Shown piece by piece: positions 19,207-30,485 of a DNA stretch of 35,140 nt (position 1 is its first letter; the number at the start of each line of letters is the position of its first letter). A program made the translations under genes and the position numbers. Below the pieces are notes generated by a model. The model was not told where the DNA came from, made no database searches, and saw nothing but the letters and a program-made list of their open reading frames with translations. Source of the DNA: an uncultured Bacteroidales bacterium (GTDB taxonomy: Bacteria > Bacteroidota > Bacteroidia > Bacteroidales > F082); NCBI GenBank assembly GCA_900318085.1, contig ONJF01000038.1, positions 1 through 35,140 on the forward strand. Reading direction: 5' to 3'.

Positions 19207-19797
19207 ATGAAAAAGATTTGTATCTTTTGCGGCAGCAGCATGGGTTTCGCCCCGATTTACAAGGAAAAAGCCGCAGAATTGGGTCACGTGCTGGCCGACC
19301 ATGGCTGTGAACTGCTCTTCGGCGGCGGCAGCGTTGGCCTAATGAAAGTCATCGCCGACGTGATGATGGAACGTGGTTGCAAGGTGACCGGCACCATCAC
19401 AAAGCATCTACTCGACATGCACGTCGGACACGACGGCATAGACGAGCTCATTGTGGTAGACTCGATGGCCGAGCGCAAGAAAATCCTTGAGGACATGGCT
19501 GATGGCTTCATCGCCTTACCAGGCGGCATCGGCACCATGGATGAGTTCTTTGAAGCTTATGTGCTCAGCCAACTGCGTGTCTTCGACAAGCCTGTCGCAC
19601 TCTACAACGTGAACGGCTACTACGATGGCATCGTCGCGTTTATCAAACACATCGCCGACGAGGGCTTCATGCGCCGCGAACATGCCGAGAACCTCATCGT
19701 CAGCGACGACGCAAAAGACCTCCTAGAGAAAATGGAGCAATTCCAGCCCGCGGATGTCACGAAGTGGGTGGTGGAGATTAAGGAACAAGTGAAGTAG
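19207..19797 (+). CDS. LOG family nucleotide phosphoribohydrolase (TIGR00730)
   Basis: A 196-residue Rossmann-like protein of the lysine-decarboxylase-like/LOG family, which cleaves ribose 5-phosphate from adenine or cytokinin nucleotide monophosphates. Seen: ICIFCGSSMG at the start, FGGGSVGLM, and the signature PGGIGTMDEFFE with its conserved Thr and Glu. The length is normal. The physiological substrate in bacteria of this group is unclear; AMP or modified AMP is most likely from family knowledge. It has its own promoter, divergent from the lipoprotein-mtnN operon. MtnN and LOG both act on adenine nucleosides or nucleotides, a possible functional link. Confidence 0.9.
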   Translation: MKKICIFCGSSMGFAPIYKEKAAELGHVLADHGCELLFGGGSVGLMKVIADVMMERGCKVTGTITKHLLDMHVGHDGIDELIVVDSMAERKKILEDMADGFIALPGGIGTMDEFFEAYVLSQLRVFDKPVALYNVNGYYDGIVAFIKHIADEGFMRREHAENLIVSDDAKDLLEKMEQFQPADVTKWVVEIKEQVK

Positions 19798-19829
19798 TTT
19801 AGAGTTGAGTGTTTAGAGTTTAGAGTTAA
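19798..19829. repeat. TTTAGAGT direct repeats
   Basis: Three copies of TTTAGAGTT (one separated by GAGTG) follow the stop codon of the LOG gene and precede the hairpin repeat. Confidence 0.6.
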
Positions 19830-19832
19830 TAC

Positions 19833-19875
19833 CAGTCCCGTAGGGACGTCAATAAGCAGGCGACGTCAGTCCCTG
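19833..19875. repeat. Inverted repeat upstream of the kinase-deaminase gene
   Basis: Contains the hairpin GTCCC-GTA-GGGAC (19836-19848) and two GACGTC-type segments (about 19846-19850 and 19862-19867), followed by AGTCCCTG. It resembles a degenerate relative of the palindromes at 20970 and 30413. It ends 19 bp before the ATG and may fold in the mRNA leader. Confidence 0.55.
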
Positions 19876-19894
19876 CTCTTAAAACAACAAGACC

Positions 19895-20947
19895 ATGATC
19901 ATCATAGGAATAACAGGAACACTAGGCGCCGGAAAAGGCACCATCGTCGACTATCTCGTCAAGGAAAAAGGCTTCGTGCACTACTCGGTACGTGCCTATA
20001 TCACAGAAGAATGCCAACGCCGCGGACTCGAGGTGAACCGCGACACCCTCACCATGGTGGGCAACGACCTGCGTGCTGCGCATTGCCCCAGCTACATCAC
20101 CGACCAGCTCTTCGAGCGGGCCAAGACCGAAGGCAAGAATGCCGTCATCGAGAGTGTGCGTACCCCAGGCGAGATCCACTCGCTGCGCGAGAAGGGCGAG
20201 TTCTACCTCTTCGCCGTCGACGCCGACCGTAAGATCCGCTACGACCGCATCTACCTGCGTGGCTCAGAGACAGACCACATCGACTTCGATACCTTCGTGG
20301 CTAACGAAGAACGTGAGATGACCGCCACTGATCCCAACAAGCAAAACCTCGGCGCCTGCATCAAGGAGGCTGACTTCGTCTTCATGAACGACGGCACTAT
20401 CCCTGAGTTGCACCAGCAGGTGGAGAAAGTGTTGACACAGCTGCATGTGCGTCCTTCATGGGATGACTATTTCCTCAACCTCGCCGACACCGTCAGCGAG
20501 CGTGCCACCTGCAACCGTGGCCGCAGCGGCTGCGTAATCGTGAAGGACAAACAAATCCTGGTGACAGGCTATGTGGGTTCGCCCAAAGGCCTCCCCCACT
20601 GCGATGATGTGGGCCACCTATTCCGCAAGGTCATCCACGAAGACGGAAGTGTCACCCAACACTGCGTGCGCACCGTGCATGCCGAGCAGAACGCCATCTG
20701 CCAGGCCGCCAGAAGAGGTATCGCCTTGGACGGCAGCACTTTATACTGCCGCATGACCCCCTGCCGCACCTGCGCCATGCTCATCATCAACTGCGGCATC
20801 GTTCGCGTGGTGTGTGAACGCCGCTACCACGACGGCGCTGAGACCGAAGAGATGTTCAAACAGGTGGGCATCGAATTGGTCTACAAATATGATGAGGTGC
20901 AGCAGTATGAGGGACAAAGGTGCGACAATACCGATCCAACAAAATAA
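19895..20947 (+). CDS. P-loop nucleotide kinase fused to deoxycytidylate deaminase
   Basis: This 350-residue protein joins two domains. Residues about 1-185 are a P-loop kinase-like domain with Walker A GTLGAGKGT (about 8-16), resembling dephospho-CoA/dNMP kinases. Residues about 190-350 are a zinc dCMP deaminase: zinc ligands and the proton-shuttling Glu in VHAEQNAICQAA and the CxxC in TPCRTCAMLI. dCMP deaminase makes dUMP for dTTP synthesis. Stand-alone ComEB-type dCMP deaminase is about 150 residues, so the fusion is notable. The same domain order is found in the AvcD/DcdV antiphage deaminases, which are much longer (about 500 residues). A housekeeping bifunctional enzyme is at least as likely. 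The gene lies between two palindromic repeats, the downstream one probably acting as terminator. Confidence 0.88.
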   Translation: MIIIGITGTLGAGKGTIVDYLVKEKGFVHYSVRAYITEECQRRGLEVNRDTLTMVGNDLRAAHCPSYITDQLFERAKTEGKNAVIESVRTPGEIHSLREKGEFYLFAVDADRKIRYDRIYLRGSETDHIDFDTFVANEEREMTATDPNKQNLGACIKEADFVFMNDGTIPELHQQVEKVLTQLHVRPSWDDYFLNLADTVSERATCNRGRSGCVIVKDKQILVTGYVGSPKGLPHCDDVGHLFRKVIHEDGSVTQHCVRTVHAEQNAICQAARRGIALDGSTLYCRMTPCRTCAMLIINCGIVRVVCERRYHDGAETEEMFKQVGIELVYKYDEVQQYEGQRCDNTDPTK

Positions 20948-20969
20948 ACAACTAGGAATAACACCTTTT

Positions 20970-21003
20970 GTAGAGACGTAGCGCGCTACGTCTCTACTTT
21001 TTT
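20970..21003 (+). terminator. 28-bp perfect palindrome plus T-run (repeat family member)
   Basis: GTAGAGACGTAGCG and its exact complement (20970-20997) form a 14-bp stem with no loop bases, followed by six T residues. It can terminate the kinase-deaminase transcript. Very similar palindromes occur at 30413 and 30456, so it is also a dispersed repeat. It lies 4 bp from the nhaC stop codon. Confidence 0.75.
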
Positions 21004-26419: not shown

Positions 26420-26465
26420 TCGTGCGAAAAATCTCGGAAAACAAAAACGTTCCCGAAATCGGCTG

Positions 26466-26473
26466 CAAAGATA
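26466..26473 (-). promoter_or_regulatory. -7 element (TATCTTTG) for tRNA-fMet
   Basis: An exact TAnnTTTG match, 47 bp upstream of the tRNA, separated by one base from the divergent era element. Confidence 0.6.
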
Positions 26474-26474
26474 A

Positions 26475-26482
26475 TAATTTTG
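26475..26482 (+). promoter_or_regulatory. -7 element (TAATTTTG) for era
   Basis: An exact TAnnTTTG match, 39 bp before the ATG at 26521. No good -33 was seen. Confidence 0.5.
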
Positions 26483-26520
26483 TTTCTTTGCAAGGCCAAA
26501 AACAAGAAAAAATTTTCATT

Positions 26521-27402
26521 ATGACACATAAAGCAGGCTATGTCAATATTATAGGACGCCCAAATGTGGGCAAGTCTACCCTCATGAACCAGCTCGTAGG
26601 CGAGAAAATCTCCATCATCACATCGAAAGCGCAGACCACTCGCCACCGCATCCTCGGCATCGTGAACGGCGATGACTTCCAAATCGTCTTCTCCGACACG
26701 CCCGGCATCATCAAAGACCCGGCCTACAAGATGCACGAGGTGATGAATCAATTCGTCAATGTGGCCCTCATCGATGCCGACCTCATCCTCTTCGTTGTCG
26801 ACATCACCGACAAGAAAATCGAGGAAAAGACCGTCGAAAGGCTGAAGACGACCGACATCCCTGTCTTTGTGCTCATCAACAAAATCGACCTGTCGACGCA
26901 AGAAGCTGTGGAACAGGCAGTTGAACAATGGCGCGAGACACTGCCCAATGCCACCGTGTTCCCCCTCTCGGCACAATACAACGCCAACGTGGAGTTTATC
27001 TTCAAACAGATCCTAGAGAAGCTGCCCGAGTGCCCACCCTATTTCCCAAAAGACGAGCTCACCGACCGCTCCATGCGTTTCTTCATCACCGAGATCATTC
27101 GCGAAAAGATACTGCTCAACTACCAACAGGAGATCCCCTATTCCGTGCAAGTCGAAGTGGAGAGCTATGAGGAGAGCGAACACCGCATCCACATCCGCAG
27201 CGTCATCTATGTGGCCCGCGACTCGCAAAAGGCCATCATCATCGGCAAGGGCGGCAGTGCCATCAAGAACCTCGGCATGCAGGCCCGTACTGATATTGAG
27301 GAGTTTACAGGCAAAAAGATATTCTTGGAGCTCTTCGTCAAAGTCGACAAGGACTGGAGAGACAACGAGGCCGAACTGAAAAGATTCGGATACGAGGCAT
27401 AA
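26521..27402 (+). CDS. era: GTPase Era
   Basis: This 293-residue GTPase binds the 3' end of 16S rRNA and helps mature the 30S subunit. G1 is GRPNVGKST (about residues 12-20), G3 is DTPG, and G4 is NKID. The C-terminal KH domain carries IIGKGGSAIKNLG and ends with ELFVKVDKDWRDN. The start MTHKAGYVNIIG at 26521 follows the promoter at 26475; the longer frame begins upstream of that promoter and was rejected. The gene precedes der with its own promoter. Confidence 0.97.
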   Translation: MTHKAGYVNIIGRPNVGKSTLMNQLVGEKISIITSKAQTTRHRILGIVNGDDFQIVFSDTPGIIKDPAYKMHEVMNQFVNVALIDADLILFVVDITDKKIEEKTVERLKTTDIPVFVLINKIDLSTQEAVEQAVEQWRETLPNATVFPLSAQYNANVEFIFKQILEKLPECPPYFPKDELTDRSMRFFITEIIREKILLNYQQEIPYSVQVEVESYEESEHRIHIRSVIYVARDSQKAIIIGKGGSAIKNLGMQARTDIEEFTGKKIFLELFVKVDKDWRDNEAELKRFGYEA

Positions 27403-27417
27403 TAAATGCTGAGTGTT

Positions 27418-27470
27418 GAATGATGAATGCTGAATGCGCGAAGCTTTGCGACATTCCGCATTCATCATTC
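27418..27470. repeat. Long imperfect hairpin of the ATTCATC repeat family
   Basis: Nineteen-base arms (27418-27436 and 27452-27470), 18 of 19 paired, flank a 15-nt loop, CGCGAAGCTTTGCGA, which is itself nearly palindromic. The arms are made of GAATGATGAATG units like those at 13865-13924. Confidence 0.75.
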
Positions 27471-27494
27471 CTAATTCCGCATTCAAAAAATGTG

Positions 27495-27502
27495 TACTTT
27501 TG
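27495..27502 (+). promoter_or_regulatory. -7 element (TACTTTTG) for der
   Basis: An exact TAnnTTTG match, 24 bp before the ATG at 27527. Confidence 0.6.
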
Positions 27503-27526
27503 CAGCCGATTTAAATTCAAAGTATT

Positions 27527-28834
27527 ATGTCAAACATCGTAGCAATAGTGGGGAGACCCAACGTGGGAAAATCGACGCTTTTCAACCGTCTGCTGAAGCA
27601 GCGCATGGCCATCGTGGAAGAAACGAGTGGCGTGACACGTGATCGGCACTACGGCAAGAGCGACTGGAATGGCAAGGAATTCACCGTCATCGACACTGGC
27701 GGTTATGTGGTAGGGTCGGACGACATCTTTGAAGAAGAAATCCGCAAGCAGGTGGACCTGGCCATCGACGAGGCCGATGTCATCGTCTTCATCGTCGACG
27801 GGCGCGAAGGCTTGCATGTCCTAGATGAAGATGTGGCGGTCATCTTGAGACAACAGAAGAAACCTGTTCTATTGGCTGTCAACAAAATAGACGAACCCAA
27901 CAAGGAAGTGCTGGCAAGCGAGTTCTACGCCTTGGGCTTGGGCGAACCCTACCCCATGTCGGCCATGACCGGCACAGGCACGGGCGATCTCCTTGACAAG
28001 GTATGCGAGCTGCTGCCTTCCGACACCACCGACTTCGACACCGACCTGCCCAAGTTCACCGTGGTGGGAAGACCTAATGTCGGAAAATCATCATTAATCA
28101 ATGCTTTCCTCGGCACCGACCGCCATATCGTGACCAACATCGCGGGCACCACGCGCGACGCCAACTACACACGTTACAACGCCTTCGGCATGGAGTTCAT
28201 GCTCGTCGACACGGCCGGACTTCGCAAGAAGAGCAAGGTGGAGGAGGACATCGAGTTCTATAGTGTGCTGCGTTCCGTCCGCGCCATCGAAGACTGTGAT
28301 GTGGCCATCCTCATGCTCGACGCCACACAAGGTTTTGAGGCACAAGACATGAACATCCTACGCCTCATCGAGAAGAACAAGAAAGGCTTGGTGATGGTCG
28401 TCAACAAATGGGACCTCGTGGAGAAAGACTCCAACACCCATTTGGAATATGAGCAGTTCATCCGCGAGCGCACCGCACCTTTCACCGACTACCCCATCAT
28501 CTTCACCTCGGCCATCAACAAGCAGCGTATATATAAGGTGCTGGAGACCGCTCACCATGTGTATGAGAACCGCGAGCGCCGCATCGCCGTGCGCGAGCTG
28601 AATGACAAGATGCAGGAGATCATCAACTCCGTGCCGTTGCCCACGGCTTCGCGCGGACGCTTCCTGAAGATCAAGTACATCACTCAACTGAAGAGCATAT
28701 CACCCCAGTTCGTTTTCTTCTGCAACCTGCCTAAAGATGTGAAAGAAAACTACAAGCGCTTCCTGGAGAACAAGATCCGCGAGACCTGGGACTTCCATGG
28801 CGTTCCGATCCAGTTGATTTTCAAGGAGAAGTAG
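27527..28834 (+). CDS. der: Ribosome-assembly GTPase Der (EngA)
   Basis: This 435-residue protein has two tandem GTPase domains and a C-terminal KH-like domain, the hallmark of Der, which is needed for 50S subunit assembly. Domain 1 has [12 protein letters not shown] (about residues 8-19), DTGG and NKID. Domain 2 has [12 protein letters not shown] (about 180-191), [16 protein letters not shown] and NKWD. The KH-like part ends with [15 protein letters not shown]. The length is standard. It is followed by an S4-domain gene after a 72-bp gap that holds a GGGAC-rich repeat and no promoter. Confidence 0.97.
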
Positions 28835-30412: not shown

Positions 30413-30442
30413 TGTAGAGACGCGCCATGGCACGTCTCTACA
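30413..30442. repeat. 30-bp palindrome (repeat family member)
   Basis: TGTAGAGACGCGCCATGGCACGTCTCTACA is palindromic apart from one mismatched pair. No T-run follows. It shares the TAGAGACG core with 20970-20997 and 30456-30485. Confidence 0.8.
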
Positions 30443-30455
30443 GAAATTGTCCGAA

Positions 30456-30485
30456 CATAGAGACGCGGCGCGCCACGTCCCTACA
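30456..30485. repeat. Imperfect palindrome (repeat family member)
   Basis: TAGAGACGCGGCG followed by CGCCACGTCCCTA, with two mismatched pairs. Together with the copy at 30413 it fills the gap between the two convergent genes. Confidence 0.75.

Follow-up and report, generated by a model that had tools for sequence, protein, structure and literature searches.

A kinase–dCMP deaminase fusion protein in uncultured Bacteroidales, probably a housekeeping pyrimidine nucleotide enzyme standing in for Cmk

Introduction

The DcdV/AvcD antiphage deaminases consist of a kinase-like domain followed by a deaminase with HAE and PCxxC motifs; they deplete dCTP/dCMP on infection and are restrained by an upstream RNA. 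In the fungal dCMP deaminase Dcd1, a kinase-like N-terminal part precedes the deaminase. ComEB and the other single-domain dCMP deaminases (TIGR02571; S. mutans 2hvw, T4 1vq2 and human 2w4l) share the deaminase fold and the zinc motif. On the kinase side, the described relatives are the P-loop kinase Cmk (TIGR00017) and the AdkA-like/UPF0200 archaeal kinases (3lw7 and 3h0k) together with the family PRK08356, which are stand-alone proteins of unsettled function.

Here, we describe a kinase-deaminase fusion gene in a contig of an uncultured Bacteroidales bacterium (35,140 nucleotides, hereafter the window), and compare its kinase half (K) and its deaminase half (D) with DcdV/AvcD, the single-domain dCMP deaminases, and the kinases named above. 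The features are listed in Table 1.

Table 1. Features of the fusion locus (positions in the window).
Feature	Position	Strand	Basis
First gene of the LOG-K-D row, LOG family (185 bits with TIGR00730, above its cut-off)	19207..19797	+	
Spacer of 97 bp containing repeat units; differs among relatives, no conserved RNA	19798..19894	+	Rfam, congeneric loci, shuffles
Kinase-deaminase fusion gene, 350 aa	19895..20947	+	ORF call, domain profiles, AlphaFold model, fold matches
K, a proposed CMP/dCMP kinase: P-loop nucleoside monophosphate (NMP) kinase domain whose Walker A (GTLGAGKGT) is intact	19895..20440	+	AAA_18, NMP kinase fold, 15-row alignment
D: dCMP deaminase domain, HAE and PCxxC zinc motif	20447..20947	+	PF00383; fold match to S. 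mutans 2hvw, 5c2o
Palindrome GTAGAGACGT-N8-ACGTCTCTAC then T6; possible terminator, of a type repeated across the genome	20970..20997	.	

Results

Domain architecture of the fusion protein

The initial annotation had described a P-loop kinase fused to a dCMP deaminase, and both domains proved to be intact. The AAA_18 profile matched residues 4–141 of the protein (8.5e-11), while PF00383 matched residues 188–307 (2.3e-24; 85.6 bits against a cut-off of 25); in the profile search, K also matched UMP-CMP kinases, weakly. Thirteen fused relatives showed no variation in the lysine and glycines of Walker A, in HAE (262–264), or in C290 and C293, and K14, R60, R115, R118, and R122 were invariant across 15 aligned K domains, free-standing K included. 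The AlphaFold model had a mean pLDDT of 91.2 and a pTM of 0.68, indicating a good model of each domain and a less certain position of the two relative to each other. Foldseek returned dCMP deaminases for D, including the S. mutans enzyme 2hvw (E 5.6e-16) and its dTTP complex 5c2o; for K, it returned NMP kinases, including 3lw7 (AdkA-like, AMP-bound, E 1.1e-9), adenylate kinases, and the UMP/CMP kinases 1uke and 2ukd. D thus combines a PF00383 match over the cut-off with a dCMP deaminase fold, the combination by which we recognised dCMP deaminases.

Neither half could be assigned to the described single-domain families. The fusion protein scored 105.9 bits against TIGR02571, whose cut-off is 219.45, and unlike ComEB it carries K. 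K had no TIGR00017 match and was related to Cmk by a distant hhalign alignment only (87%, E 4e-6), although the same reaction is proposed for both. The nearest solved fold and the nearest family model were those of the AdkA-like/UPF0200 kinases and PRK08356, respectively, but K reached 56–58 bits where the PRK08356 cut-off is 189.

Four places in the source genome matched PF00383: the fusion, two TadA-like proteins, and one cytidine deaminase (over the cut-off). The TadA-like proteins scored 84 and 136 bits against a cut-off of 150, and the 84-bit protein appeared guanine-deaminase-like by eye. No other dCMP deaminase was found by this search of the genome, and its sole dCTP-deaminase-like match was a dUTPase. 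When 81 deaminase domains were placed in a tree (a quick method, with long branches flagged), the family of the fusion stood apart (support 98) from both the DcdV and the ComEB-type groups; seven DcdVs formed one side of a branch (99), as did six ComEB-type enzymes of cmk-bearing relatives (99).

Distribution and pairing of K and D

Of 35 other congeneric genomes, 33 had a match to the fusion, one of these matches being split into two pieces; the two genomes without a match were 85% and 76% complete. In an order-wide survey of 393 genomes, K/D matches were found in 130 at E≤1e-20 and in 126 at E≤1e-55 (hereafter strong); the four weak ones (G044, G085, G164, and G314, of which G044 and G314 carry cmk) were left out before cross-tabulation. 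Among the 126 strong genomes, 20 had one continuous match, 102 had at least two matches listed (taken as one per half), and 4 had a single half; the first two groups together made up 122 genomes. Five of the continuous matches (G142, G152, G251, G276, and G287) corresponded to adjacent ORFs separated by a stop, leaving 15 true fusions, 5 in the genus and 10 elsewhere. In several genomes, K and D lay far apart or on separate contigs (L040/L041, L042/L043, L045/L046, and L081/L082).

Of 584 named relatives, the best 80 included fused proteins from ruminant-gut Bacteroidales, from one Lentimicrobiaceae, and from six archaeal MAGs (DPANN or unnamed). A Woesearchaeota MAG (L129 4001–5673) encoded a fused protein with another K-like gene (200 aa, 31% identity) directly behind it. 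Genomes bearing K also occur in Sphingobacteriales, Chitinophagaceae, Nanoarchaeota, and Patescibacteria. In 14 spirochaete loci, the deaminase was present with no K inside the fetched flanks, and in a spirochaete MAG (L172 2984–4576), a 530-aa ORF ended in a deaminase of this type, its approximately 370 preceding residues having no Pfam match.

Mutual exclusion with Cmk

Across the 393 genomes of the order, 126 had strong K/D matches and 242 had cmk (TIGR00017 over the cut-off), none had both, and 25 had neither. The pattern was the same among genomes at least 90% complete (106 with K/D, 211 with cmk, and none with both) and at the family level, where 43 families with K/D and 72 with cmk did not overlap. 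Thus, K and D are retained almost throughout a large clade that lacks the kinase found in most of its relatives. Of the CMP-kinase families TIGR00017, TIGR02173, and PF13189, the search of the source genome itself covered the first, which had no match. In a set of 60 relatives of the source genome, cmk was present in 16, none of which had a close K; one of them (G039) showed a remote K-like match at 24% identity (E 2.2e-5).

Since cmk is absent wherever a strong K/D match is present, the most likely role of K is that of a CMP/dCMP kinase not orthologous to Cmk, its substrate being deduced from the exclusion with cmk, the fold, and the gene row. In a marker tree of five proteins (a quick method; 18 of 20 rows were kept, G043 and G047 being dropped for lack of data), the K/D genomes formed one clade (support 97), and the K/D and cmk families were disjoint; the exclusion therefore probably reflects one retained historical swap, and the idea of many independent replacements was rejected. 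For the same reason, the Fisher value of the cross-tabulation, which takes no account of relatedness, was not counted as evidence. A search of open-licence papers found no description of the K-D enzyme or of a replacement of Cmk by K.

The LOG-family gene row

In 28 of the 29 congeneric loci with complete genes, the fusion was immediately preceded by a LOG-family gene in the same orientation. In the 29th (L048 2928–4733, genome G014), LOG and K formed a single ORF of 385 aa, with D as a separate gene. Outside the genus, LOG was found at most 300 bp upstream in 14 of the 37 loci that had at least 700 bp of upstream sequence, with overlapping stop and start in 3 of the 14. LOG-family enzymes take their name from the cleavage of nucleoside monophosphates, in keeping with a set of adjacent genes for NMP enzymes. 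Canonical cmk adjoined LOG in 2 of 28 cmk loci (flanks were short in some), both from one family, so a general link between LOG and canonical cmk was rejected. In these two loci of family f10 (L273 1489–2728 and L300 932–2171), canonical cmk was followed by an overlapping LOG-family gene. Elsewhere in the window (26422–28834), two GTPase genes appeared era- and der-like by eye, and homologues of the second were located near K/D in six other fetched loci.

Upstream spacer and downstream palindrome

The gene had initially been annotated as lying between a structured leader and a palindromic terminator. The spacer does fold better than its shuffles (z −3.16; 3 of 200 shuffles were equally good), and the palindrome is real, with a 12-pair stem followed by six T, but neither belongs to this gene alone. 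The repeat units AGTCCCGTAGGGACG and GCAGGCGACGTAAGTCCCTGC, to which the folding signal of the spacer is due, were present in 11 of 29 congeneric loci; they were multiplied in some loci and absent from others, where the DNA was unrelated, and the spacer length ranged from 0 to 225 bp. An Rfam scan of the window yielded two tRNAs only, with no match in the spacer. The minimal functional AvcI RNA has been given as approximately 171 bases (PMC10511110). Against that figure, the spacer is short and unconserved, and the suggestion that the leader might be an AvcD-type small RNA was rejected for it; an RNA overlapping the LOG gene lies outside this comparison.

Seven strict copies of the palindrome type were counted genome-wide, compared with none for a reversed control pattern, and its interpretation as a gene-specific signal was likewise dropped. 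Within the window, similar palindromes were located at 30414–30441 and 30457–30484, and together with the copy behind the fusion they constitute a repeat family of the GTAGAGACG...CGTCTCTAC type.

Alternative explanations

The domain order of AvcD/DcdV, pointed out in the initial annotation, is indeed that of the fusion, and the relationship extends to both domains: K aligned with the DcdV N-terminal domain over 178 columns (hhalign, 98.6%, E 1.2e-15), the HAE...PCxxC motif is shared, and the PADLOC dCTPase model matched the protein across both domains with 141.6 bits. It is nevertheless very improbable that the fusion is a compact antiphage deaminase of the DcdV/AvcD kind, acting on dCTP/dCMP during infection under the restraint of an RNA. 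The PADLOC model also gave 110 and 120 bits to ordinary single-domain dCMP deaminases of the order (31 to TadA), whereas true DcdVs scored 421 and 538, and against the NCBIfam model NF041025 (antiphage_deaminase) the fusion reached 100.2 bits with a cut-off of 400. The DcdVs compared here are longer (510–658 aa) and patchy, with DcdV-like matches (E≤1e-30) in 9 of the 395 genomes surveyed across the phylum, 4 of them over the cut-off, whereas the fusion is a core gene of its genus. The Walker lysine was present in 15 of 15 K domains but replaced by L, M, S, or C in seven of eight DcdVs of the phylum, two of which were nearly identical; the remaining one (L258) kept the lysine and had lost the preceding glycine and the following S/T, leaving the P-loop broken in all eight. 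None of the 2633 matching phage records and none of the 52 matching plasmid records covered 80% of the protein, and the best 80 of 186 viral relatives matched the deaminase half, the longest match starting at residue 117. The upstream spacer, at 97 bp and without conservation, offers no counterpart to the restraining RNA either. Near-universal presence in relatives and the lack of another dCMP deaminase in the genome, which the initial annotation had named as evidence against defence, were both observed (33 of 35 congeneric genomes; the other three PF00383 proteins are TadA-like or a cytidine deaminase), and the phylogeny that it had put forward as a check left D outside the DcdV clade. The defence reading was rejected on the score, the short length, the tree, and the distribution, while the homology over both domains, combined with the broken P-loops of the DcdVs, suggests that the two kinds of protein share a fused ancestor.

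The remaining alternatives accept a cellular role and concern K itself. Among 15 K sequences searched at E≤0.01, 13 matched an archaeal (d)CMP kinase model and 10 the UMP-CMP kinase family, but 9 each also matched adenylate kinase and dephospho-CoA kinase models, all far below the cut-offs, so the sequence does not fix the substrate. K could be an active kinase for something other than CMP, such as a dTMP kinase or a broad deoxynucleotide kinase acting downstream of D in dTTP supply, a reading that we regard as unlikely but worth keeping in view. The deoxynucleoside monophosphate kinase family phrog_139 matches K, and canonical tmk (TIGR00041) was over the cut-off in 6 of the 60 genomes, all six with cmk and none with K/D. 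However, 10 of the 16 cmk genomes also had no tmk over the cut-off (one of them, G043, at 80.7 against 83.25 bits), as was the case for the control Bacteroides ihuae, which had no TIGR00041 match; tmk therefore fails to sort with K in the way that cmk does, and a role for K as the missing dTMP kinase is not favoured. The weak tmk matches of the source genome were deoxynucleoside kinases (PF01712). Still less probable is a silent or regulatory K that merely accompanies the deaminase, with the absence of Cmk having another cause. Such a role would agree with the fusion or adjacency of K to D and with the broken P-loops in the K-like domains of DcdVs. Against it, the Walker lysine and the four arginines (R60, R115, R118, and R122) persist in all 15 K domains even where K is free-standing, K and D lie far apart or on different contigs in several genomes, and one genome fuses K to LOG instead of D.

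Discussion

The predicted folds of both domains, their intact active-site motifs, the near-universal presence in the genus, the co-occurrence of K and D, and the recurring row with LOG, once as a fusion, were all observed. On balance, we consider the fusion to be probably a housekeeping bifunctional pyrimidine nucleotide enzyme in which K stands in for Cmk; the conservative interpretation given in the initial annotation, that of a bifunctional pyrimidine enzyme, is thereby supported, and the mutual exclusion with Cmk and the gene row with LOG go beyond what it had foreseen. Judging from family, fold, and distribution, D would convert dCMP to dUMP, the precursor of dTMP, and K would phosphorylate CMP and dCMP to CDP and dCDP in place of Cmk. 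Joined in one chain at the dCMP branch point, the two activities would set the split between dCTP and dTTP supply, possibly under allosteric control.

A more far-reaching proposal, which we put forward tentatively as possible rather than probable, is that K represents a new CMP/dCMP kinase family that displaced Cmk in a large Bacteroidales clade and forms a single dCMP switch with a dCMP deaminase that is either fused to it or encoded by a partner gene, and that DcdVs arose from such an enzyme when the P-loop was lost and the kinase half turned regulatory.

These results bear on both annotation and evolution. The PADLOC dCTPase defence model picks up housekeeping deaminases, and the DcdV architecture could plausibly have originated from a housekeeping kinase-deaminase. 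In 43 families of the order, compared with 72 that have Cmk, an unrecognised enzyme apparently performs a core pyrimidine step, and pathway annotation would therefore miss the CMP kinase in many such bacteria.
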